Part shown: in pieces, positions 11,143-31,135 of the stretch
Numbering within the stretch: position 1 is the stretch's first letter
Layout: every line of letters starts with the position of its first letter
Assembly (NCBI GenBank): GCA_017503105.1
Contig: JAFVTS010000002.1
Coordinates: 1 to 53,296, forward strand
DNA: 53,296 bases
Source of the DNA: Clostridia bacterium
GTDB lineage: Bacteria; Bacillota; Clostridia; Oscillospirales; CAG-272
Reading direction: 5' to 3'
Translations under genes and position numbers: made by a program
Notes under the pieces: model-generated
The model's database searches: none
Told to the model about the DNA's origin: nothing
What the model saw: only the letters and a program-made list of their open reading frames with translations

Positions 11143-11173
11143 AAAGTATATTTCAAAATAAGAGGTGATTTTT

Positions 11174-12523
11174 ATGTTCAAATCAGAGTATTTAAACGAT
11201 CTCGTTGCTCGCGTTGAAAAGCGTAACGCGGGTGAGCCCGAGTTCCTCCAGACTGTAAAAGAGGTTCTTGAGTCTATCGAGCCCGTGCTTGAGCAGAGCC
11301 CCGAGTACGTCAAGAGCGGCGTTATCGAGCGTATGGTCGAGCCCGAGAGAATTATTAAGTTCAGAGTTCCGTGGGTCGACGACAACGGCAACGTTCAGGT
11401 GAACCGCGGATTCCGTATCCAGTTCAACAGCGCTATCGGTCCTTATAAGGGCGGACTTCGCTTCCATCCTACCGTAAACGAGTCTATCATTAAGTTCCTC
11501 GGCTTTGAGCAGACCTTCAAGAACTCTCTCACCAGCCTTCCTATGGGCGGCGGTAAGGGCGGCTCCGACTTCGACCCGCAGGGCAAGTCCGACGCTGAGG
11601 TTATGCGTTTCTGCCAGAGCTTTATGACCGAGCTTCAGAAGTATATCGGAGCAGATACCGACGTTCCCGCAGGTGACATCGGCGTTGGCGCAAGAGAGAT
11701 CGGTTATCTTTACGGTCAGTATAAGAGACTTCGCGATGAGTTCACGGGCGTCCTTACGGGTAAGGGTCTTTCTTACGGCGGTTCTCTCATCCGTCCCGAG
11801 GCTACGGGCTACGGCGCGGTATACTACACCGTTGAGATGCTCAAGCACTTCGGCGACGATATTAAGGGTAAGACCTTTGCGATCTCGGGCTTCGGTAACG
11901 TTGCTTGGGGTACCGTTAAGAAGGTTACCGAGCTTGGCGGTAAGGTAGTTACTATCTCCGGTCCCGACGGATATATCTACGACGAGGACGGTATCAATAC
12001 CCCCGAAAAGATCGATTATATGCTTGAGATGCGTGCTTCCTGCCGTAACAGAGTCGAGGATTACGCAGACAAGTTCGGCGTTCCCTTCTTCAAGGGTGAG
12101 AAGCCTTGGGGCGTAAAGGCTGATATTCTTATGCCTTGTGCTACCCAGAACGAGGTTCGTGAGGCAGATGCTGAGAAGATCATTGCCAACGGCGTTAAGT
12201 ATTACGTAGAGGTTTCCAATATGCCCACCACCAACGAGGCGGTTGCTATGCTCAAGAACGCAGGCGTTATCGTAGCTCCTTCCAAGGCGGTCAACGCAGG
12301 TGGCGTTGCTACCTCGGGTCTTGAGATGTCGCAGAACTCTATGCGTTATTCTTGGACCGCAGAGGAGGTCGACGCTAAGCTCAAGATGATTATGAAGAAC
12401 ATCTTCGAGGCTTCCGTAAACGCGGCAAACAAGTACGGTCTCGGTGACGATCTCGTTGCCGGCGCTAACATCGCGGGCTTCATCAAGGTTGCTGACGCAA
12501 TGATGGCTCAGGGTGTGGTTTAA
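11174..12523 (+). CDS. gdhA: Glutamate dehydrogenase, NADP-type family
   Basis: 449-aa cytosolic enzyme that makes glutamate from 2-oxoglutarate and ammonia (or the reverse). The length and the opening YLNDLVARVEKRNAGEPEF fit the hexameric family I GDH. Key segments are NRGFRIQFNSAIGPYKGGLR (substrate lysines), LPMGGGKGGSDFDPQGKS with the catalytic lysine, the PAGDIGVGAREIGYLYG block and a Rossmann motif SGFGNVAWG. NADP preference is inferred from the overall family, not from a decisive residue. ATG 11174 is preferred over GTG 11165, which lies within the ribosome binding site. It is transcribed alone between its own promoter and terminator, and probably highly expressed given its strongly biased codons. 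Confidence 0.95.
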   Translation: MFKSEYLNDLVARVEKRNAGEPEFLQTVKEVLESIEPVLEQSPEYVKSGVIERMVEPERIIKFRVPWVDDNGNVQVNRGFRIQFNSAIGPYKGGLRFHPTVNESIIKFLGFEQTFKNSLTSLPMGGGKGGSDFDPQGKSDAEVMRFCQSFMTELQKYIGADTDVPAGDIGVGAREIGYLYGQYKRLRDEFTGVLTGKGLSYGGSLIRPEATGYGAVYYTVEMLKHFGDDIKGKTFAISGFGNVAWGTVKKVTELGGKVVTISGPDGYIYDEDGINTPEKIDYMLEMRASCRNRVEDYADKFGVPFFKGEKPWGVKADILMPCATQNEVREADAEKIIANGVKYYVEVSNMPTTNEAVAMLKNAGVIVAPSKAVNAGGVATSGLEMSQNSMRYSWTAEEVDAKLKMIMKNIFEASVNAANKYGLGDDLVAGANIAGFIKVADAMMAQGVV

Positions 12524-20416: not shown

Positions 20417-20445
20417 TTGACAAATAAATGCGGATATGATAAAAT
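20417..20445 (+). promoter_or_regulatory. Promoter of the purine operon
   Basis: TTGACA at 20417-20422 and TAAAAT at 20440-20445, 17-base spacer. It should drive all eight pur genes; no internal terminator was seen before 31147. Confidence 0.85.
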
Positions 20446-20468
20446 AAAGCGTAACATTTATTTTAATA

Positions 20469-20488
20469 ACGCACGTACACACGTGCGT
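20469..20488 (+). promoter_or_regulatory. Hairpin in the purE leader
   Basis: ACGCACGT-acac-ACGTGCGT, a perfect 8-bp stem in the 110-base untranslated leader. As DNA it is also a palindrome that could bind a repressor. No purine riboswitch core and no match to the Bacillus PurR box were recognised, so its regulatory role is inference. Confidence 0.45.
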
Positions 20489-20557
20489 GAGTGCGCGAGC
20501 CGTATGGCCGTTGTCACGAGTTCTTTTGTTATTATTTATACCGAGGAGGATATGTTT

Positions 20558-21052
20558 ATGAAAAAAGTTGCGGTTCTTATGGGAAGTGACAGTGATCTTC
20601 CCATAGTCGAAAAAGGGATAGCGGTTCTTAAGGACTACGGAATTCCCTTTGAAGTTCACGTTTATTCCGCTCACAGGACACCTAAGGAGGCGGCAGAGTT
20701 CGTTTCGAGTGCTCGAGACAACGGCTTTGGCGTCATTATTGCGGCTGCCGGTATGGCGGCTCACCTTGCGGGTGCTGTCGCGGCAAACACGGTCTTGCCC
20801 GTTATCGGAATTCCCGTTTCCTGCAAGAATACGGGCGGTATGGACGCTCTTCTCGCAACAGTGCAGATGCCCTCGGGTATTCCCGTTGCGACCGTCGCTA
20901 TCGACGGTGCGGCAAACGCGGCTCACCTCGCCGCTGAGATATTGGCACTCGGGGACCCCGACCTTCACGAAAAGCTCGTGGAAAAGCGCGCAGAGGGCGC
21001 TCGTAAGGTTCTTGCAAAGAACGCAGAGATAGAAGCAAAATTCAACGCATAA
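20558..21052 (+). CDS. purE: N5-carboxyaminoimidazole ribonucleotide mutase (class I PurE)
   Basis: 164-aa enzyme of purine synthesis. The N-terminal MGSDSDLP motif, [10 protein letters not shown] with the catalytic histidine (His39), and [16 protein letters not shown] plus [20 protein letters not shown] identify PurE. Class I PurE rearranges N5-CAIR made by PurK; class II uses AIR and CO2 directly. No purK is in this operon, so the substrate question is open. The start is ATG 20558: GGAGGA at 20545-20550 is well placed for it but too close to ATG 20552. It is the first gene of the operon; the PurF-like gene starts 29 bases later. Confidence 0.94.
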
Positions 21053-21081
21053 TTTGACAAAGCAAATAATCAGGAGGGCTT

Positions 21082-22506
21082 ATGGGAGGTTTTTTTGGAG
21101 TTGTAAGTAAGCGCGACGCAATATCCGATGTTTTCTTTGGCACGGATTATCATTCACACCTTGGCACGAAAAGAGGCGGAATGGCGGCGTATGATGATGA
21201 GATTGGACTTCAACGCGACATACATAATATTGAAAATTCACCTTTCAGGACTAAATTCGCAAATATTTTAGAAGAAATGAAGGGAAAGGCGGCTATCGGC
21301 TGTATCAGCGATACGCATCCGCAGCCCTTGCTTATCCGATCGCGAATAGGAACTTACGGCATTTGTATTATCGGACACATAAACAATTCGGAAGAGCTTA
21401 TTGAGGAATACGAATTGACGAACGGCGGACACTTTGGTGTTATGACGGGCGAAAACGTAAACTCGGTTGAGCTTGTAGCCTCCCTGATAAACAAAAAGGA
21501 TAGCTTTTGTGAGGGAATACGGTTCGCACAGGACGTTATTGACGGTACTGCGGCGATTATGTTGCTTGTTAATGACGGAAGTATTATTGCCGCAAGAGAC
21601 AAGCTTGGCAGACTGCCCGTGATTATCGGCAAGAACGATGACGGCCATAGCGTTTCGTTTGAGTCCTTCGCCTTTGAAAAGCTTGACTATGAAAAGATTA
21701 TGGAGCTTGGCCCCGGTGAGGTTGTCAAGATTACGGCAGATAGCGTAGAGCAACTTGCAAAACCCCGCGATGAAATGAAGATGTGCGCATTCCTTTGGAC
21801 TTATTACGGTTATTCGACCTCGGATTACGAGGGCGTGAACGTCGAGATGATGCGCTACAAGAACGGAAAAATTCTCGCAAAGAACGACAAGGCAAGGGGA
21901 GTAGCGCAGGATATTGACTACGTGTGCGGTATGCCCGACTCGGGAACACCTCACGCAATTGGATACGCAAACGAAAGCGACGCGGATTTTGCCCGTGCAT
22001 TTATAAAATATACGCCTACTTGGATGCGTAGCTTTACACCGACGCTTCAGACCGAGCGCAATAAGATCGCAAAGATGAAGCAGATACCCATTAAGGAGCT
22101 TATTAAAGACAAAAAGCTTCTTATAGTTGACGACTCGATAGTAAGAGGAACTCAGCTTAAGGGGACGGTGGACTTTCTTCTTGGAAACGGCGCTAAAGCG
22201 GTTCATATGCGTTCCGCGTGCCCGCCCATAATGTATAGTTGCAAATATCTTAACTTCTCGCGTGCGACGAGTTCTCTTGAGCTTATCGCAAGACGTACGA
22301 TACTTGAGCTTGAGGGCGAGAAGGGCTTTGAGTATATTGAAGAATACAGCTCTCCCGATACGGAAAGAGGAAAAAATCTCCGCAAGGCGATTGCTGAAAA
22401 ATTTCACTTCGATTCGCTCGAATTCCAATCTCTTGAGGGAATAATCGAGGCGATCGGCATCGAACCGTGTAAGCTCTGCACGTATTGCTGGACAGGCAAA
22501 GAATAA
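21082..22506 (+). CDS. PurF-like amidophosphoribosyltransferase without glutaminase residues
   Basis: 474-aa protein with the PurF layout: N-terminal Ntn-hydrolase-like domain (residues 2-230), then a phosphoribosyltransferase domain with PRPP loop KLLIVDDSIVRGTQ (345-358) and the GMPDSGTPHAIGYA segment. Cysteines 235, 387, 463 and 466 fit the Fe-S ligands of Bacillus-type PurF. However the nucleophilic Cys after the initiator Met is Gly2 (MGGFFGVV), the HVRY-type arginine region reads GCISDTHP, the HNGN oxyanion site reads IIGHINN, and the later Asp is replaced near ENVNSVEL. The start is firm: AGGAGGG precedes ATG 21082 and an in-frame TAA lies at 21067. It may make phosphoribosylamine from free ammonia or from ammonia delivered by a partner. 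Confidence 0.85.
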   Translation: MGGFFGVVSKRDAISDVFFGTDYHSHLGTKRGGMAAYDDEIGLQRDIHNIENSPFRTKFANILEEMKGKAAIGCISDTHPQPLLIRSRIGTYGICIIGHINNSEELIEEYELTNGGHFGVMTGENVNSVELVASLINKKDSFCEGIRFAQDVIDGTAAIMLLVNDGSIIAARDKLGRLPVIIGKNDDGHSVSFESFAFEKLDYEKIMELGPGEVVKITADSVEQLAKPRDEMKMCAFLWTYYGYSTSDYEGVNVEMMRYKNGKILAKNDKARGVAQDIDYVCGMPDSGTPHAIGYANESDADFARAFIKYTPTWMRSFTPTLQTERNKIAKMKQIPIKELIKDKKLLIVDDSIVRGTQLKGTVDFLLGNGAKAVHMRSACPPIMYSCKYLNFSRATSSLELIARRTILELEGEKGFEYIEEYSSPDTERGKNLRKAIAEKFHFDSLEFQSLEGIIEAIGIEPCKLCTYCWTGKE

Positions 22507-22546: not shown

Positions 22547-23593
22547 ATGAAAAATAGTTACAGCAAAAGCTACGCCGCAGCAGGCGTTGACATTACCGCG
22601 GGTTATAAAGCCGTAGAGCTTATGAAGGCTCATATCGCCCGTACCCGCAACGAGGGTTGCCTTGATGACGTTGGAGGCTTCGGAGGTTGCTTCGGTCTTC
22701 CCGTAAAGGGAATGGAAGAGCCCGTGCTCGTTTCCGGCACGGACGGATGCGGAACAAAAGTAAAGCTCGCTATACTTATGGACAAGCACGATACTATCGG
22801 TATCGACGCCGTAGCAATGTGCGTGAACGATATCATCTGCTGCGGAGCAAAGCCGCTCTTCTTCCTTGATTATATCGCTTGCGGCAAGAACGTTCCCGAA
22901 AAGATAGCTTCTATCGTAAGCGGCGTTGCCGAAGGCTGCGTTCAGTCGGGCGCGGCGCTCATAGGCGGCGAGACTGCCGAGCACCCGGGTCTTATGCCTG
23001 TCGAGGACTACGACCTTGCGGGCTTTGCGGTAGGTATCGTTGATAAGAAAAAGATAATTGATAACAAGAAAATGAAGGCGGGCGACGTTATCATCGCGCT
23101 TCCCTCTACGGGTATTCACTCAAACGGCTTCTCCCTTTGCCGTAAGGTCTTTGACATAGACAATAACAACCCCGAGCTCTACAAGGCTCGCGAGGAGCTC
23201 GGCGGCAGAACGATAGCCGAGGCGCTCCTCACCCCCACGAGAATATACGTAAAATCCATTCTCGCTCTTCTTGAGAAGGTTGCGGTGAAGGGCATTTCCC
23301 ATATTACGGGCGGCGGATTTTACGAGAATATTCCGAGATCCATTCCCGACGGTCTTGGCGCGAAGATCAACAAGGCTGACGTAAAGGTCCTCCCCATATT
23401 CGACCTTATCAAGGAGTTCGGAAATATTCCCGAGCGTGATATGTTCAACACCTACAATATGGGCGTCGGTATGAGCGTCGTGGTTTCTCCCGAGGACGTT
23501 GACGCGGCGCTTGAAATACTCAGGGCAAACGGCGATGACGCTTACGTTATCGGAGAGATAATCGAGAGCGACGACGGTGTGGTGTTCTGCTGA
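22547..23593 (+). CDS. purM: Phosphoribosylformylglycinamidine cyclo-ligase (AIR synthetase)
   Basis: 348-aa ATP-dependent enzyme that closes the imidazole ring (FGAM to AIR). The N-terminal [19 protein letters not shown] and [10 protein letters not shown] loops, the [10 protein letters not shown] motif and the [20 protein letters not shown] signature identify PurM. Later segments [12 protein letters not shown] and [17 protein letters not shown] follow the family order; the length is normal. GAGAGGAATT precedes ATG 22547. The stop codon shares one base with the purN start, so the two are translationally coupled. Confidence 0.96.
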
Positions 23594-24234
23594 TGGAGAA
23601 GAACTGTGTAAAAATAGCCGTTCTCGTTTCGGGCGGCGGAACTAATCTCCAGGCGCTCATTGACGCAGAGAAGCGCGGTGAGCTCGGCGCAGGCAAGATA
23701 AGCCTCGTCCTTGCGTCAAAGCCGGGCGTTTTCGCGCTCGAACGGGCCGCAAAGCACGGCATAGAGTCGAAGGTGCTTGCAAGACGTGATTTTGAAACGA
23801 TAGCGGAATATTCAAAGGCTCTTGCCGACGCTCTCGTTGCAGAGAAAATAGATCTTGTTGTCCTTGCGGGCTTCCTTACAATAATAGACGAGCAGGTCTA
23901 TGAAAAATTCCCGAACAGAATACTTAACGTGCACCCCGCACTCATCCCCTCGTTCTGCGGAAAGGGCTTTTACGGTCTTCACGTCCACGAGGCGGCTCTT
24001 GAAAAGGGCGTTAAGGTCTCGGGCGCTACCGTACACATCGTGACTCCCGAATGTGATGCAGGCCCGATAGTTCTCCAAAAGGCAGTCGAAGTTAAGGATG
24101 ATGACACTCCTGAAACGCTTCAGAGAAGAATTATGGAGGAAGCGGAGTGGAAGATACTGCCCGAGGCAGTAAGGCTCTTCGCCGACGGAAAGCTCATCGT
24201 AGAAAACAACAAAGTATATATTAAAGGAGAGTAA
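23593..24234 (+). CDS. purN: Phosphoribosylglycinamide formyltransferase, folate-dependent
   Basis: 213-aa enzyme that transfers a formyl group from 10-formyl-tetrahydrofolate to GAR. The N-terminal phosphate loop is LVSGGGTNLQAL. Catalytic residues are Asn112 and His114 (LNVHPALIPSF) and Asp155 (ECDAGPIVLQ), in normal order. A folate-loop segment AGFLTIIDEQV precedes them. Its start overlaps the purM stop by one base and purO begins three bases after its stop. With purN present, formate-dependent PurT is not needed. Confidence 0.96.
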   Translation: MEKNCVKIAVLVSGGGTNLQALIDAEKRGELGAGKISLVLASKPGVFALERAAKHGIESKVLARRDFETIAEYSKALADALVAEKIDLVVLAGFLTIIDEQVYEKFPNRILNVHPALIPSFCGKGFYGLHVHEAALEKGVKVSGATVHIVTPECDAGPIVLQKAVEVKDDDTPETLQRRIMEEAEWKILPEAVRLFADGKLIVENNKVYIKGE

Positions 24235-24237
24235 GCA

Positions 24238-24954
24238 ATGAAGGTTTCAAGCATAAAAGAAGAACTTAATTCTCTTGCTTATCACGGCAGAGGCATAATC
24301 ATCGGCAAGAGCGCCGATTCAAAGAAGGCTGTAACGGCTTATTTCATAATGGGAAGAAGCGAAAACAGCCGTAACAGAGTTTTCGTTGCCGAGGGTGACG
24401 CTATGCGTACCAAGGCGTTCGACGAGTCGAAGATGACCGATCCTCACCTTATAATCTACTATCCCGTGAGAGTGCTCGGAAACAAGACCATAGTTACCAA
24501 CGGCGATCAGACCGACACCATTTATGAACTTATGGACAAGCAGATGACCTTTGAGCAGGCGCTGAGGACCCGTGAGTTCGAGGACGACAAGCCGAATTTC
24601 ACCCCGAGAATTTCGGGCATAATCCGCCGCGAGTGCGACGGAATGAATTTCGCAATGTCGATTCTCAAGAGCGCCGAGGGTGACGACTCCTCTTGCGAGA
24701 GATTCACCTACGCTTACTCGGCCCCCATCGCGGGCAGAGCGAAGTTCATCCATACTTATAACGGTGACGGAAATCCCCTCCCGTCGTTTGAGGGTGAACC
24801 CAAGACCCTTGAGCTTCCCGACGTGGATATCGACACGCTTACCGACCTTATCTGGACGAATCTTAACGCCGATAACAAGGTATCTCTCTTCGTAAGATAT
24901 ATCGACATCGCAAGCGGAGAGTGCGAAACGAGAATAGTAAATAAAAACATCTGA
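24238..24954 (+). CDS. purO: IMP cyclohydrolase, PurO-type
   Basis: 238-aa protein of the stand-alone IMP cyclohydrolase family (IMP_cyclohyd), best known from archaea, which closes FAICAR to IMP. Recognisable segments are the N-terminal SLAYHGRGIIIGKSAD, GRSENSRNRVFVAEGD with the conserved N-R pair, the TNGDQTDTIYE loop and DDKPNFTPRISGII. It is unrelated in fold to the N-terminal half of bacterial PurH. GGAGAG for its start lies in the end of purN. The next gene encodes only the transformylase, so the two together replace fused PurH. The family assignment is from motif memory. Confidence 0.88.
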   Translation: MKVSSIKEELNSLAYHGRGIIIGKSADSKKAVTAYFIMGRSENSRNRVFVAEGDAMRTKAFDESKMTDPHLIIYYPVRVLGNKTIVTNGDQTDTIYELMDKQMTFEQALRTREFEDDKPNFTPRISGIIRRECDGMNFAMSILKSAEGDDSSCERFTYAYSAPIAGRAKFIHTYNGDGNPLPSFEGEPKTLELPDVDIDTLTDLIWTNLNADNKVSLFVRYIDIASGECETRIVNKNI

Positions 24955-24964
24955 GGTGCTGAAA

Positions 24965-26149
24965 ATGAAAGAATTTGAACTTAAATACGGCTGTAACCCT
25001 AACCAGAAGCCCGCAAAAATATATATGAACGACGGCTCGGAGCTTCCCATTGAAATACTCAACGGAAGACCCGGATACATAAACTTCCTTGACGCCTTCA
25101 ACTCCTGGCAGCTTGTAAAGGAGCTTAAAGCGGCACTCGGACTTCCCGCCGTTACTTCCTTCAAGCACGTAAGCCCCACCTCTGCCGCCGTCGGAATCCC
25201 GCTTTCGGATAAGCTCAAGAGAGCTTGCTTCGTTGACGACATCGAGGGGCTTGACGACTCTCTCCTTGCTTGTGCTTACGCAAGAGCAAGAGGCACTGAC
25301 AGAATGTGCTCCTTCGGCGACTGGGTCGCGCTCTCCGACGTTTGTGACGTAACTACCGCAAAGATGCTCGCGCGCGAGGTCTCCGACGGTATAATCGCTC
25401 CCGGCTACGAGCCCGAGGCACTTGAGATACTCAAGGGCAAGAGAAAGGGCGGATATAATATAGTTAAGATAGATCCCGATTACGTTCCCGCCGAGCAGGA
25501 AACGAAGCAGGTCTTCGGTATCACCTTCGAGCAGGGCAGAAACAACTTCAAGATCGACCGCGAGCTTCTTACGAATATCGTAACCGCAAACAAGGATATG
25601 CCCGAGAGTGCTGTCCGTGATCTTATCGTCGCTCTTATCACTCTTAAATACACTCAGTCCAATTCCGTATGCTTTGCCGTTGACGGTCAGGCAATAGGCG
25701 TTGGCGCAGGTCAGCAGTCAAGAGTTCACTGCACGCGTCTTGCGGGCGGAAAGGCTGATACCTGGTTCCTTCGTCAGTGCGACAAGGTCCTTGACCTTCC
25801 CTTCAAGCCTACTCTCGGTCGCCCCGACAGAGATAACGTCATCGACGGTTATATCAACCAGAACGAGGAGGACGTTTGCGCTGAGGGCAATTGGCAGAAA
25901 TACTTCACCGAAAGACCTGAGCCCTTCACCAAGGAGGAGCAGAGAGCTTACCTTGACACTATTGACGGTGTTGCGCTCGGCTCCGATGCGTTCTTCCCCT
26001 TCAGTGACAACATTGAGCGCGCGAAGAAATCGGGCGTTAAGTACATAGCCGAGCCCGGTGGCTCCATTCGTGACGATCTCGTTATAGAGTGCTGCGACAA
26101 CTACGGTATCGCAATGGCATTCACGGGAATGCGCTTGTTCCACCATTGA
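24965..26149 (+). CDS. Stand-alone AICAR transformylase (PurH2/PurV-type)
   Basis: 394-aa protein corresponding to the AICAR-transformylase half of PurH: it formylates AICAR with 10-formyl-THF. It opens KEFELKYGCNPNQKPAKIYM, has the catalytic lysine-histidine in TSFKHVSPTSAAVGIPL, and the C-terminal KYTQSNSVCFAVDGQAIGVG and GAGQQSRVHCTRLAG segments. No IMP cyclohydrolase domain precedes it; that function is in the gene just upstream. The start is ATG 24965, since GAGGTG at 24953-24958 (overlapping the purO stop) serves it; GTG 24956 is part of that site. Confidence 0.92.
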   Translation: MKEFELKYGCNPNQKPAKIYMNDGSELPIEILNGRPGYINFLDAFNSWQLVKELKAALGLPAVTSFKHVSPTSAAVGIPLSDKLKRACFVDDIEGLDDSLLACAYARARGTDRMCSFGDWVALSDVCDVTTAKMLAREVSDGIIAPGYEPEALEILKGKRKGGYNIVKIDPDYVPAEQETKQVFGITFEQGRNNFKIDRELLTNIVTANKDMPESAVRDLIVALITLKYTQSNSVCFAVDGQAIGVGAGQQSRVHCTRLAGGKADTWFLRQCDKVLDLPFKPTLGRPDRDNVIDGYINQNEEDVCAEGNWQKYFTERPEPFTKEEQRAYLDTIDGVALGSDAFFPFSDNIERAKKSGVKYIAEPGGSIRDDLVIECCDNYGIAMAFTGMRLFHH

Positions 26150-26173: not shown

Positions 26174-27442
26174 ATGAGAGTAATGGTAGTAGGTGGCGGC
26201 GGAAGAGAGCACGCCATCATAAAAAAGCTTAAGTCCTGTGCGGGAGTTGACGAGATATTCGCTCTTCCGGGCAACGGCGGAATGGCAAACGATGCGACCC
26301 TCGTTCCCATCGGGGCGAAGGATATTGACGCAATTGCCGATTACGCAAAGAACAATAAAATCGATTTTGCCGTAGTAGCTCCCGACGATCCCCTCGTTCT
26401 CGGCTGCGTTGACAGGCTTGAAGCACTTGGCATTCCTTGCTTCGGCCCTCGCGCAAACGCGGCGATAATAGAGGGCAGTAAGGTCTTTTCCAAAAACCTT
26501 ATGAAAAAGTACGGGATCCCCACGGCGGAGTACGAGGTGTTCGAGAGCGCAGATGCCGCATACGAATACCTTAAAACGGCACCCATTCCTACGGTAATAA
26601 AGGCTGACGGACTTGCGCTCGGCAAGGGCGTTATAATAGCTATGACGCGTGAGGAGGCGATCGACGCCGTAAAATCCATAATGTCCGAGAAAAAGTTCGG
26701 CGATAGCGGCAACAAGATCGTCGTTGAGGAATTTCTCACGGGTCCTGAGGTGTCCGTTCTTTCCTTTACGGACGGCACGACCGTTGTTCCTATGGTATCG
26801 TCGATGGACCACAAGCGCGCTCTTGATAATGACGAGGGGCTTAACACGGGCGGTATGGGAACCGTTGCGCCCAATCCCTATTATACCTCGGAGATCGCCA
26901 ACGAATGTATGGAAAAGATATTTCTCCCCACTATCCGCGCAATGAAAGCGGAGGGCAGGGAATTCCGCGGCTGCCTCTATTTCGGCCTTATGCTCACGCC
27001 TAAGGGACCGAAGGTCATAGAATACAACTGCCGCTTCGGAGATCCCGAAACGCAGGTAGTGCTTCCTCTTCTTAAAAGCGACCTTTTTGAGATTATGCAG
27101 GCTGTCGCGCGCGGCACTCTCGCAGACTGTAAGGTCGAGTTCTCGGACGGTGCTTGTGCGTGCGTAATAATGGCGTCGAGCGGCTATCCCGAGAAGTACG
27201 AGAGCGGATTTGAAATAAAAATGGCTGACGAGGTGCAGGATTCCGTTTACGTCGCGGGCGCTAAGCTCTCGGACGGAAAGCTCCTTACGGCAGGCGGCAG
27301 AGTGCTCGGCGTAACCGCTACGGCACAGACTCTTGAGGACGCTATCCGCGCCGCTTATGAAAAAGTGGAAAAGGTCAGCTTCGAAAATGCATTTTACCGT
27401 AAGGATATAGGTGCTCGCGCCCTCCTTGCAAAGAAAGGATAA
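26174..27442 (+). CDS. purD: Phosphoribosylamine-glycine ligase (GAR synthetase)
   Basis: 422-aa ATP-grasp enzyme joining phosphoribosylamine and glycine. N-terminal MRVMVVGGGGREHAI is diagnostic. ATP-grasp segments are IPTVIKADGLALGKGVIIAM and KIVVEEFLTGPEVSVLSF; the PurD signature YNCRFGDPETQVVLPLL closes the active site. The C-terminal domain (GYPEKYESG onward) is complete. GGAGG lies 13 bases upstream, a slightly long spacing. Because phosphoribosylamine is short-lived, PurD would have to draw directly on the unusual PurF-like protein of this operon or on another PurF in the genome. Confidence 0.96.
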   Translation: MRVMVVGGGGREHAIIKKLKSCAGVDEIFALPGNGGMANDATLVPIGAKDIDAIADYAKNNKIDFAVVAPDDPLVLGCVDRLEALGIPCFGPRANAAIIEGSKVFSKNLMKKYGIPTAEYEVFESADAAYEYLKTAPIPTVIKADGLALGKGVIIAMTREEAIDAVKSIMSEKKFGDSGNKIVVEEFLTGPEVSVLSFTDGTTVVPMVSSMDHKRALDNDEGLNTGGMGTVAPNPYYTSEIANECMEKIFLPTIRAMKAEGREFRGCLYFGLMLTPKGPKVIEYNCRFGDPETQVVLPLLKSDLFEIMQAVARGTLADCKVEFSDGACACVIMASSGYPEKYESGFEIKMADEVQDSVYVAGAKLSDGKLLTAGGRVLGVTATAQTLEDAIRAAYEKVEKVSFENAFYRKDIGARALLAKKG

Positions 27443-27448
27443 CATCAA

Positions 27449-30400
27449 ATGGTATATCGTATTTATGTGGAGAAAAAGCAGGGACTTGATAACGAAGCTC
27501 GCGCTCTTCTCTCCGAGATCTCAACTTTCCTTGATATAAAAAGCGTTGAGCGCGTAAGAGTTATCAACCGTTACGATGCTGAAAATATCACCAAGGAGCT
27601 CTTTGATTACGCAGTAGGCGCGGTATTCTCCGAGCCTCAGCTTGATGACGTTTATACTGAGCTTGACCCCGACGGCGCTAAAGTGTTCGCCACGGAATTC
27701 CTTCCCGGTCAGTTCGACCAGAGAGCTGATTCCGCGGCACAGTGCATCCAGCTCATCTCTCACGGTGAGAAGCCCGACGTCGCAAGCGCAAAGGTATATA
27801 TGCTCTACGGAAATATATCGGACGGCGAGCTTGCGAGGATCAAGAAGCACGTTATAAACCCCGTCGAGGCAAGAGAGGCAAGCCTTGATAAAAAAGATAC
27901 TATAAAGATGGAATACGCAATCCCCACCGAGGTAAAGGTGCTTGACGGCTTTACCGAGCTTGACGAGGCGGGTCTTGCAGACTTCGTTGCAAGCTACGGT
28001 CTTGCGATGGATCTTGACGATATTAAGTTCTGTCAGGGATATTTCAAGAAGGAGGGCAGATGCCCCACTATCACCGAGATCCGTATGATAGACACGTATT
28101 GGTCCGACCATTGCCGTCACACGACCTTCCTTACTACCGTTGATTCCGTAAAGTTTGAGGACGCGGTGCTTGAGGAGGCGTATAAGGAATATTTATCCGC
28201 GCGCGAGTTCATTGAGAGAAAGAAGCCCGTAAATCTTATGGACATCGGCACCATCGCCGCAAAGTGCTTGAAAAAATGCGGCAAGCTCGACGGACTTGAC
28301 GAGTCCGAGGAAATAAACGCTTGTACCGTAAAGATCACGGTCGACGTTGACGGCACTCCCGAGCCTTGGCTCCTTCTTTTCAAGAACGAAACCCACAACC
28401 ACCCTACGGAAATAGAGCCCTTCGGCGGTGCGGCTACCTGTATCGGCGGTGCTATACGCGACCCCCTTTCGGGCAGAGCGTACGTCTACGGCGCGATGCG
28501 TCTTACGGGCGCGGCTGACCCCTTGAAGCCCATTTCCGAAACTCTTGAAGGAAAGCTTCCTCAAAGAAAGATTGTAACGACCGCGGCAGCAGGATATTCC
28601 TCTTACGGAAACCAGATCGGTCTTGCTACGGGTATAGTTGATGAAATATATCACGACGGCTATGCGGCGAAGCATATGGAGGTCGGCGCGGTGATCGCGG
28701 CGGCTCCCGCTGAAAACGTGCGCCGCGAGGTCCCCGAGGACGGAGATCTCGTAATACTTCTCGGCGGACGTACGGGAAGAGACGGCTGCGGCGGTGCTAC
28801 GGGCTCGTCCAAGTCGCATAACCTTAAATCTCTTGAAAACTGCGGCGCCGAGGTGCAGAAGGGTAACGCCCCCGAGGAAAGAAAGATCCAGCGTTTGTTC
28901 AGAAACAAGACCGTTTCGAGAATGATCAAGCGTTGTAACGACTTCGGTGCGGGCGGTGTCTCCGTTGCTATCGGCGAGCTTGCTGACGGACTTGAGATCG
29001 ACCTTAACGCAGTTCCCAAGAAGTATGACGGTCTTGACGGCACCGAGCTTGCTATATCCGAATCTCAGGAGAGAATGGCAGTAGTTATCGAGGCGCATAA
29101 TAAGGACGCGTTCCTCGCACTTGCCGACGCGGAAAACCTTGAGGCAACCGTTGTCGCGAGAGTTAAGGCAGAGCCGAGGCTCACTATGCATTGGAACGGC
29201 AAGACGATAGTCGACCTCTCCCGCGAGTTCCTTAACTCCAACGGAGCAGAGAAGCACATAAACATCGAATCTCCCAAGATCGGTAACGTAAACAAGGAGC
29301 TCCCCGCTTGCTTCAAATGCGGTATGAATGCCGTTGCTACGGGTCTTAACACCTGCTCAAAGCGCGGTCTTTCCGAAAGATTTGACTCTACTATCGGTGC
29401 GGGCACGGTTCTTATGCCCTTCGGCGGAAAGTATCAGCGCACCCCCATTCAGGCAATGGTGCAGAAGATCTCCGTTGAAAAGAAGCACACCGACCTTGCG
29501 TCCTTTATGTCCTGGGGCTATAACCCCGACATTTCCACGGCAAGCCCTTATCACGGCGCTTATCTTGCCGTAGTTGAGTCTGCGGCAAAGCTCGTTGCGA
29601 CGGGCGCTGAATTCAAAGAGGTCTATCTCACCTTCCAGGAATATTTTGAGAAGCCGATGAAGGACCCCAAGAGATGGGGCAAGCCTCTCGCGGCTCTTCT
29701 CGGCGCATTCCGCGCACAGATGGATCTCGGCATTGCCGCAATAGGCGGAAAGGACTCAATGAGCGGAAGCTTTGAGAAGCTTGACGTTCCGCCGACCCTT
29801 ATTTCCTTCGCTGTCACTACCGATAAAATAGAGAACGTAATTTCTCCCGAATTCAAAAAGGCAGGCACCCGTGTAGCGATTTTGGAGCCCGAACGCGATG
29901 AAAACGGACTTCCCAAGGCAGAGTCGCTCCTTGCGCTCTTTGATAAGATCACCGCTCTTATGAGAGCAGGAAAGGTACTCTCCGCTTACACGCCCACTAT
30001 CGGCGGTGTTTCCGAGGCGGTTATGAAGATGGCTATGGGTAACGGCTTTGGCTTCAGGTTTGACGACGCTCTCACTCTTTCCGACATCTTCGCTTATAAC
30101 TACGGCTCGTTCGTCATCGAAACGACCGATGAGTGTGTCGGCAAGACTCTCGGATGTGTAACCGATGACGGCGAATTTACCTATAAGAATGACAGCGTTA
30201 AGTGCGCTGACGTAAACGCGGACTACGAGAACAAGCTTGAGAGCGTTTATTCCTGCAATATCGGCTATCAGAAGACTGCTCCCGAAACCGTAAGCTCTCC
30301 CGCAAAGACGAGAGTCGCTCCCGCGGTGAAGGTTGCTAAGCCCAAGGTCCTTATCCCCGTATTCCCGGGCACGAACTGTGAGTACGATTCCGCGAAAGCG

Positions 30401-31135
30401 GTAATGGACGCGGGCGCCGAGGCTGAGATATTCGTTATCAACAATCTCACCGCCGACGGTATCAAGAGAAGTGCCGAAACCTTCGCGGAGAAGATAAGCA
30501 CCTCGCAGGCTATCTTTGTTCCCGGTGGCTTCTCGGGCGGTGACGAGCCCGACGGCTCGGGCAAGTTCATCACGGCATTCTTCCGCGGTGAGGTGGTAAA
30601 GAACGCCGTCGGAGAGCTTCTTGACAAGCGTGACGGTCTTATGTGCGGTATCTGTAACGGCTTCCAGGCTCTTATCAAGCTCGGACTTCTTCCTTACGGC
30701 AAGATCATCGACACCGACGAGAGCTGCCCGACCCTTACCTTCAACAATATCGCGCGTCACCAATCCAAGATCGTTCGCACGAGGATCGCGTCGAATATGT
30801 CGCCGTGGCTCGCTCTTACCAACGTCGGTGACGTCTATAACGTTCCGATCTCTCACGGAGAAGGAAAGTTCCTTGCCGACGAGAAAACGGTCAAGGAGCT
30901 TGTCAAGAACGGACAGATAGCAACGCAGTACGTCGACCTTGACGGAAACGCAACCTATAACATCGATTACAACCCCAACGGCTCGACCCTTGCGGTAGAG
31001 GGTATCACCTCTCCCGACGGACGCGTCTTCGGTAAGATGGGACACTCCGAGCGTATCGGCGAAGGACTTTATAAAAACGTCCTCGGCGATTACGACATCA
31101 AGATGTTCAAGTCTATGGTCAAGTATTTTAAGTAA
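27449..31135 (+). CDS. purL: Phosphoribosylformylglycinamidine synthase, single-chain PurL with PurQ domain
   Basis: 1228-aa fusion enzyme that converts FGAR to FGAM with glutamine and ATP. The N-terminal third holds the PurS-like and linker parts, with TYWSDHCRHTTF near residue 220 and FKNETHNHPTEIEPFGGAAT near residue 310 marking the synthetase. After about residue 965 comes the class I glutaminase (PurQ-like) domain, with PVFPGTNCEYDSAKA, the nucleophile in GICNGFQAL (Cys1069) and its histidine in PISHGEGKF (His1136). Unlike the PurF-like protein upstream, this glutaminase site is intact. It is the long single-chain form used by proteobacteria and many Clostridia. It ends the operon, 12 bases before a strong terminator. 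Confidence 0.96.
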   Translation: MVYRIYVEKKQGLDNEARALLSEISTFLDIKSVERVRVINRYDAENITKELFDYAVGAVFSEPQLDDVYTELDPDGAKVFATEFLPGQFDQRADSAAQCIQLISHGEKPDVASAKVYMLYGNISDGELARIKKHVINPVEAREASLDKKDTIKMEYAIPTEVKVLDGFTELDEAGLADFVASYGLAMDLDDIKFCQGYFKKEGRCPTITEIRMIDTYWSDHCRHTTFLTTVDSVKFEDAVLEEAYKEYLSAREFIERKKPVNLMDIGTIAAKCLKKCGKLDGLDESEEINACTVKITVDVDGTPEPWLLLFKNETHNHPTEIEPFGGAATCIGGAIRDPLSGRAYVYGAMRLTGAADPLKPISETLEGKLPQRKIVTTAAAGYSSYGNQIGLATGIVDEIYHDGYAAKHMEVGAVIAAAPAENVRREVPEDGDLVILLGGRTGRDGCGGATGSSKSHNLKSLENCGAEVQKGNAPEERKIQRLFRNKTVSRMIKRCNDFGAGGVSVAIGELADGLEIDLNAVPKKYDGLDGTELAISESQERMAVVIEAHNKDAFLALADAENLEATVVARVKAEPRLTMHWNGKTIVDLSREFLNSNGAEKHINIESPKIGNVNKELPACFKCGMNAVATGLNTCSKRGLSERFDSTIGAGTVLMPFGGKYQRTPIQAMVQKISVEKKHTDLASFMSWGYNPDISTASPYHGAYLAVVESAAKLVATGAEFKEVYLTFQEYFEKPMKDPKRWGKPLAALLGAFRAQMDLGIAAIGGKDSMSGSFEKLDVPPTLISFAVTTDKIENVISPEFKKAGTRVAILEPERDENGLPKAESLLALFDKITALMRAGKVLSAYTPTIGGVSEAVMKMAMGNGFGFRFDDALTLSDIFAYNYGSFVIETTDECVGKTLGCVTDDGEFTYKNDSVKCADVNADYENKLESVYSCNIGYQKTAPETVSSPAKTRVAPAVKVAKPKVLIPVFPGTNCEYDSAKAVMDAGAEAEIFVINNLTADGIKRSAETFAEKISTSQAIFVPGGFSGGDEPDGSGKFITAFFRGEVVKNAVGELLDKRDGLMCGICNGFQALIKLGLLPYGKIIDTDESCPTLTFNNIARHQSKIVRTRIASNMSPWLALTNVGDVYNVPISHGEGKFLADEKTVKELVKNGQIATQYVDLDGNATYNIDYNPNGSTLAVEGITSPDGRVFGKMGHSERIGEGLYKNVLGDYDIKMFKSMVKYFK

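Follow-up and report, generated by a model that had tools for sequence, protein, structure and literature searches.

PurF catalyzes the committed first step of purine synthesis, a reaction taught as glutamine-dependent. Vertebrate carbamoyl phosphate synthetase I has naturally lost its glutaminase nucleophile, keeps the dead domain and uses ammonia as its donor, and the asparagine synthetases AsnA and AsnB serve a single step with one ammonia-using and one glutamine-using isoform. In the laboratory, changing Cys1 of E. coli PurF to Ala or Ser abolishes glutamine use and preserves ammonia use (Mei and Zalkin, as cited in excerpts of PMC3261824), and excerpts of PMC12017579 describe NH3-dependent synthesis of 5-phosphoribosylamine (PRA) by canonical PurF enzymes. 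Methanocorpusculum Mlab_0150 is likewise a PurF paralogue without the Cys, with Ser instead; in the excerpts of PMC3261824 it is treated as a recent duplicate of the PurF of that species and is not counted as a PurF.

Here we analyze a PurF homologue encoded in a 53,296-nucleotide stretch of DNA, hereafter the window, from a Clostridia bacterium (CAG-272; GCA_017503105.1, contig JAFVTS010000002.1, positions 1–53,296, forward strand). Compared with the canonical PurFs of B. subtilis (1ao0, 1gph) and E. coli (1ecb), this variant lacks Cys1, Arg26, Arg73, Tyr74, Asn101 and Asp127 and belongs to a separate clade on a long branch. Whereas the laboratory mutants carry a single engineered change, the variant represents a natural family in which the whole binding site is lost. 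Carbamoyl phosphate synthetase I is a different enzyme with a different class of glutaminase, and AsnA and AsnB have unrelated folds, whereas canonical and variant PurF are paralogues. A title search of the open-access PMC literature returned no study of the variant family. A widespread PurF without its own glutaminase would alter the predicted nitrogen demand, ammonium growth and purine prototrophy of gut bacteria, offers a natural test of the non-hydrolytic roles of the PurF glutaminase half, and should be missed by inhibitors of the PurF glutamine site.

A PurF family without a glutaminase site

The open reading frame between purE and purM (Table 1) encodes a PurF homologue without a glutaminase site. 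The initial annotation of this DNA, made from the letters alone, had reported Gly in place of the Cys nucleophile, loss of the Arg, Asn and Asp residues of the glutamine site, and retention of the PRPP loop and four Fe-S cysteines, all of which the alignment bears out. With the lost residues in E. coli numbering, in which Arg73 and Asp127 bind glutamine and Asn101 is the oxyanion residue, Gly2 replaces Cys1, Leu27 replaces Arg26, Ile97 replaces Asn101 and Ser128 replaces Asp127, and the Arg73–Tyr74 segment is deleted after Ile75. The protein has the overall PurF fold and falls outside the glutamine-dependent PurF family defined by TIGR01134 (EC 2.4.2.14), scoring 160.4 bits against a curated cut-off of 350; none of the NCBIfam models fits it better, and the Pfam Pribosyltran match to its C-terminal domain is weak and under the cut-off for that model.

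Loss of the glutaminase residues is a family trait. Cys1, Arg26 and Arg73 are gone in all 161 aligned variants, from Clostridia to Bacteroides, with Gly (156) or Ser (5) at the Cys1 position. The Asn101 position is occupied by Val, Ile, Thr, Ala or Leu in 161 of 161, and the Asp127 position by Ser (as in the window), Ala, Pro, Gln or Thr in 143 of 161. The Asp-Asp, Arg and Thr of the PRPP loop are present in every one of the 161 sequences, and the Fe-S ligands are kept.

The missing catalytic Cys could in principle reflect a decaying or mis-sequenced gene, a reading that we regard as practically negligible. The in-frame TAA just upstream excludes a missed N-terminus, as the initial annotation had argued. 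A sequencing error at the start codon, named there as a possible refutation, is countered by the agreement of all 161 aligned relatives on the loss of Cys1; a pseudogene is excluded by the intact reading frame and low dN/dS, and a single odd genome by the wide occurrence of the variant among relatives. Between the window and its closest relative (L032, 93% identical), dN/dS in the dead N-domain is ~0.05, with dN 0.043 and dS 0.95, compared with dN 0.024 and dS 0.87 in the C-domain (synonymous sites are at or near saturation in other pairs), which upholds the initial view that decay of an intact, operon-embedded gene is unlikely. Mean identity among 81 variants is 68% in the N-domain and 76% in the C-domain, against 61% and 62% among 31 canonical PurFs. 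The dead domain is thus somewhat freer yet clearly constrained and, being constrained, probably retains a structural or regulatory function.

The survey covered 293 genomes of the class that are ≥95% complete, many of them probably MAGs, and assembly gaps may account for some of the apparent absences. Canonical PurF exceeded its cut-off in 231 genomes and the variant occurred in 84, with both forms in 60, the variant only in 24, canonical PurF only in 171 and neither in 38. The variant count is 85 matched genomes minus G267, whose match is the canonical gene; the matched genomes include G337, with a copy split over two contigs, and G325, with a fragment. G238 was counted as having both forms, its canonical gene passing the cut-off once two pieces in one frame were combined, and G272 was counted as having neither, yet holds a frame-broken canonical gene. 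Named relatives comprise Peptoclostridium acidaminophilum (50.6% identity), Parabacteroides distasonis (47.7%), Phocaeicola massiliensis (46.4%) and Bacteroides finegoldii (46.2%), all found in records listed as plasmids; two are annotated as amidophosphoribosyltransferase and one as hypothetical protein, and the fourth record is unannotated. In Bacteroides ihuae, a control genome, purD is present, and the canonical PurF profile has no match at ≤1e-60 and a weaker one above it. A variant with 60.8% identity is also encoded by a 12.9-kb entry submitted as a gut phage (MT836108.1, 6276–7697), possibly bacterial DNA in a virome.

In a quick tree built without bootstraps, 91 variants are separated from 12 canonical PurFs by one long branch with full support. 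Most members of one clade (33 rows) are operonic, and most of another (44 rows) stand alone. Sixteen changes are needed between variant-only and both-form states, some of which may be assembly gaps.

Probable phosphoribosylamine synthesis and the likely source of its ammonia

The variant purF belongs to a series of eight closely spaced genes on one strand, ordered purE, variant purF, purM, purN, IMP cyclohydrolase-like gene, AICAR formyltransferase gene, purD and fused purL-purQ (Table 1). The promoter-like site ahead of purE agrees with 11 of 12 consensus positions and is a consensus match only, in a region with six such sites against 3.5 expected from shuffles. The purE start was picked by eye inside the ORF at 20417–21052. 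A check for riboswitch control gave no Rfam match of any kind in the window; in the loci of 14 relatives, the single riboswitch is of the c-di-AMP type, ~9 kb from the variant gene (L196). Bifunctional purH is replaced in the operon by the IMP cyclohydrolase-like gene (PF07826) and a separate AICAR formyltransferase (24238–26149). An NADP-type glutamate dehydrogenase gene lies at 11165–12523, ~8 kb upstream of purE.

Table 1 Features of the variant purF locus in the window
Feature	Position	Strand	Details
Sigma-70-type promoter-like site ahead of purE	20417..20445	+	TTGACA-17-TAAAAT, TG before second hexamer
purE (N5-CAIR mutase)	20558..21052	+	PF00731 and TIGR01162 over cut-off
In-frame TAA upstream of variant purF	21067..21069	+	
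Ribosome-binding site of variant purF	21072..21077	+	AGGAGG, read from sequence
Variant PurF without glutaminase site	21082..22506	+	474 aa, starts MGGFFG; putative NH3-dependent PRA-forming enzyme
N-terminal Ntn (glutaminase-fold) domain	21082..21771	+	border at residue 230 set by eye
C-terminal phosphoribosyltransferase domain	21772..22503	+	PRPP loop VDDSIVRGT; Fe-S cysteines 235, 387, 466, 469
purM	22547..23593	+	TIGR00878 over cut-off
purN	23593..24234	+	TIGR00639 over cut-off
IMP cyclohydrolase-like protein	24238..24954	+	PF07826 over cut-off; NCBIfam PurO models below cut-off
AICAR formyltransferase (PRK07106 type)	24956..26149	+	NF005492 over cut-off
purD	26174..27442	+	TIGR00877 over cut-off; consumes phosphoribosylamine
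purL with fused PurQ glutaminase	27449..31135	+	TIGR01857 over cut-off; GICNG cysteine motif kept

Genomes in which the variant is the only PurF found retain the enzymes that follow it. Among the 24 variant-only genomes, one of which (G301) is a single contig, purD is present in 23 (not G295), purM in 23 (not G397) and both in 22, compared with purD in one (G149, weak) and purM in none of 37 genomes with neither PurF (G272 left out; Fisher 1e-14 for purD and 6e-16 for purM, a statistic that ignores kinship, which inflates genome counts). Within the genus of the window, we fetched 16 canonical and 14 variant loci in addition to the window itself. At the purF slot of the pur operon, 14 genomes have canonical PurF and 12, the window's among them, have the variant. 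Gene order is otherwise alike, with purC present or absent, G004 rearranged and some contigs short. The remaining canonical genes of the genus (G024, G044) lie in nitrogen clusters and the remaining variants (G014, G026, G046) outside the pur operon. Canonical and variant genes stand side by side or ≤4 kb apart in six loci (G088, G261, G264, G270, L070, L107), four of them inside the pur operon, the pattern that ongoing gene replacement would produce. The sole-PurF genomes, nearly all with purD and purM, the exchange of the operon slot and the neighboring copies of the two forms argue that the variant very likely makes PRA without hydrolyzing glutamine of its own. The initial annotation had offered three roles, namely use of free ammonia, use of ammonia handed over by a partner, and regulation.

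A pure regulator is made unlikely by the sole-PurF genomes and the slot exchange. If the variant were a regulator or another non-PRA enzyme, with PRA coming from elsewhere, its position outside the pur operon in 41 of 56 both-form genomes examined and ahead of pepT in Bacteroides, Parabacteroides and Peptoclostridium would be readily accommodated; the invariance of the PRPP-loop residues adds to the case against, and we judge this explanation very improbable. Canonical PurF accompanies the variant in 60 of the 84 variant genomes, where the variant need not make PRA and could have a different duty. The partner role, in which a separate protein hydrolyzes glutamine and hands ammonia to the variant in a complex, as HisH does for HisF, draws on the scarcity of free NH3 at neutral pH and on the canonical PurF as a candidate glutaminase partner in the six loci where the two genes are adjacent or ≤4 kb apart. 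The ammonia channel that PurF enzymes form, according to excerpts of PMC12017579, also speaks for it. Against it, canonical PurF is absent from the 24 variant-only genomes among 293, all genes of the operon in the window could be assigned to families with no partner glutaminase seen, and the one other recurrent operon neighbor in relatives, initially unassigned, was profiled as purC. Around 78 class-set and three named copies, the neighbors recurring in at least 10 families are pur genes only, and outside pur operons in Clostridia the neighbors show no clear theme. With no partner seen among the operon genes and recurrent neighbors, we consider such a complex unlikely, although a distant, unlinked partner may exist.

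The own genome of the window gives a similar picture. A second PurF, which the initial annotation had suggested looking for, did not appear there: the one PurF match and the one GATase_7 match are both the variant gene itself. Four class I GATase matches lie outside the pur operon, which is counted against a partner. Two are HisH, of which one was profiled and the second has an identical score; a third resembles a gamma-glutamyl-GABA hydrolase but scores under the cut-off, and the fourth has no NCBIfam match. The PurL glutaminase falls under another Pfam model. The two hisH-like genes (G000:C23:6336–6926 and G000:C25:58419–59009) share score and length and are perhaps an assembly duplicate.

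With the glutamine site gone and a recurrent partner gene absent, free ammonia is the likeliest donor, and we think it likely, judging from conserved and lost residues and gene context, that the variant forms PRA from PRPP and free ammonia. The variant would then serve as the cell's 5-phosphoribosylamine synthase, a PurF paralogue no longer able to bind or hydrolyze glutamine. Its C-terminal domain is predicted from the conserved residues to bind Mg-PRPP like canonical PurF, ammonia would be taken directly from the cytosol, and the Ntn fold, its glutaminase residues lost, may be retained as a lid, structural or regulatory in function, that has no glutaminase activity. Against this reading, the conservation of the N-domain suggests that it still does something, perhaps ligand binding, and PurL, encoded in this operon, retains its glutaminase motif, which implies that glutamine is available to the cell.

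Peptoclostridium, Bacteroides and Parabacteroides (L142, L143, L144) have pepT after the variant gene, and in the latter two gcvT comes next, a gene order that suggests a possible connection with the use of peptides or glycine.

Two PurFs in one genome and nitrogen clusters

We examined the canonical gene in 56 both-form genomes, namely 53 of the 60 in the class and three of the window's genus, in which the variant lies in the pur operon in 15 and elsewhere in 41. In the canonical-only genomes used for comparison, which were sampled from the window's genus, canonical PurF is in the pur operon in 13 of 13. Where the variant occupies the pur operon (n = 15), canonical PurF sits in a nitrogen cluster (≥2 genes) in nine genomes, beside the variant in the pur operon in two and in neither setting in four. 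Where the variant is elsewhere (n = 41), canonical PurF is found in such a cluster in eight, with one such neighbor in seven, in the pur operon in 11 and in neither in 15. It thus lies outside both pur and nitrogen clusters in 19 of the 56 genomes. The cluster genes profiled in example loci encode an ammonium transporter–PII fusion, GSIII, GltB, GltD, AsnB, NadE, GuaA, GlmS, PyrG, CarA and CarB; those in the remaining loci were identified by similarity to the profiled ones. Only six of 92 variant loci have any nitrogen-cluster neighbor, in four cases carB.

A counterpart cluster in Prevotella ruminicola, with PII, amtB and asnB near GSIII, gltBD and dapF, responds to ammonium by up to 69-fold according to excerpts of PMC5552732. 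These are inconsistent on direction: the Results describe induction in limiting ammonium, the legend and Discussion place the highest expression in non-limiting ammonium, and the abstract calls GS-GOGAT expression similar. From the locations of the genes, we infer that the glutamine form is under separate nitrogen control, of either sign. In both-form genomes, the two PurFs would probably be nitrogen-donor isoforms under separate control, the putative ammonia form standing with pur genes or alone and the glutamine form often, if not always, in a nitrogen-assimilation cluster.

Six loci (L256, L257, L243, L265, L269, L282) carry clusters of glutamine-dependent amidotransferases in varying sets of AsnB, GlmS, GuaA, PyrG, canonical PurF and CarAB, some of them together with the ammonium transporter–PII fusion, GSIII and GOGAT. 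Stand-alone variants in three genomes of family f31 have a carB-like gene a short way upstream, and the G156 variant has one nearby (L196, L200, L208, L151).

Other amidations in the window's genome and its relatives

The GMP synthase of the window's own genome is 333 aa long (L312:608–1609, G000:C44) and matches positions 192–512 of a 512-position model, which means that the GATase domain is missing; the protein still passes the NCBIfam cut-off for glutamine-hydrolyzing GMP synthase. No GATase gene was seen in the ORFs of its 2.8-kb locus. Taking the variant PurF and the short GMP synthase together, two purine nucleotide amidations look ammonia-fed, alongside a PurL with its GICNG motif. AsnB was not seen in this genome, where the sole GATase_7 match is the variant PurF, nor was GlmS seen via the PurF profile; both searches were indirect, by the GATase_7 and PurF profiles. 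That the PurF profile picks up GlmS in many relatives is suggested by weak matches in ~600-aa frames, one of which was profiled.

CTP synthase (PF06418) was not found in 19 of the 31 genomes searched and is present in 14 of 14 control genomes. The 19 are G000 (the window's own), six other variant-only genomes of the same genus, G129, G130, G156, G157, G180, G239, G164 and G206, together with canonical G002, G004, G047 and G050. A true absence would mean either cytidine auxotrophy or another CTP-forming enzyme.

As a tentative proposal that may well be wrong, gut Clostridia and Bacteroidota might choose by nitrogen status between an ammonia-only PurF and a glutamine PurF moved to the nitrogen-assimilation regulon. 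Some lineages, the window's among them, might have largely dropped glutamine-dependent amidation, given a putative ammonia PurF, a GATase-less GMP synthase and no sight of CTP synthase, AsnB or GlmS, with the dead Ntn domain possibly acting as a sensor or gate.

The GMP synthase search covered 15 of the 24 class variant-only genomes (G000 included), a further six from the window's genus and 10 other genomes. Short GMP synthases (frame 300–420 aa) occur in 17 of 21 variant-only genomes tested, an association confounded by kinship because seven of the 21 belong to the window's genus, where the short form is also present in three of six canonical-only genomes. Across genomes with both PurFs, no general association of the variant with the short GMP synthase was found: the short form occurs in four of 40 both-form genomes against eight of 40 canonical-only genomes (drawn from 60 and 171, respectively), with no enrichment. 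Four genomes with both PurFs, chosen for their nitrogen clusters (G024, G044, G111, G119), each encode a full and a short GMP synthase.
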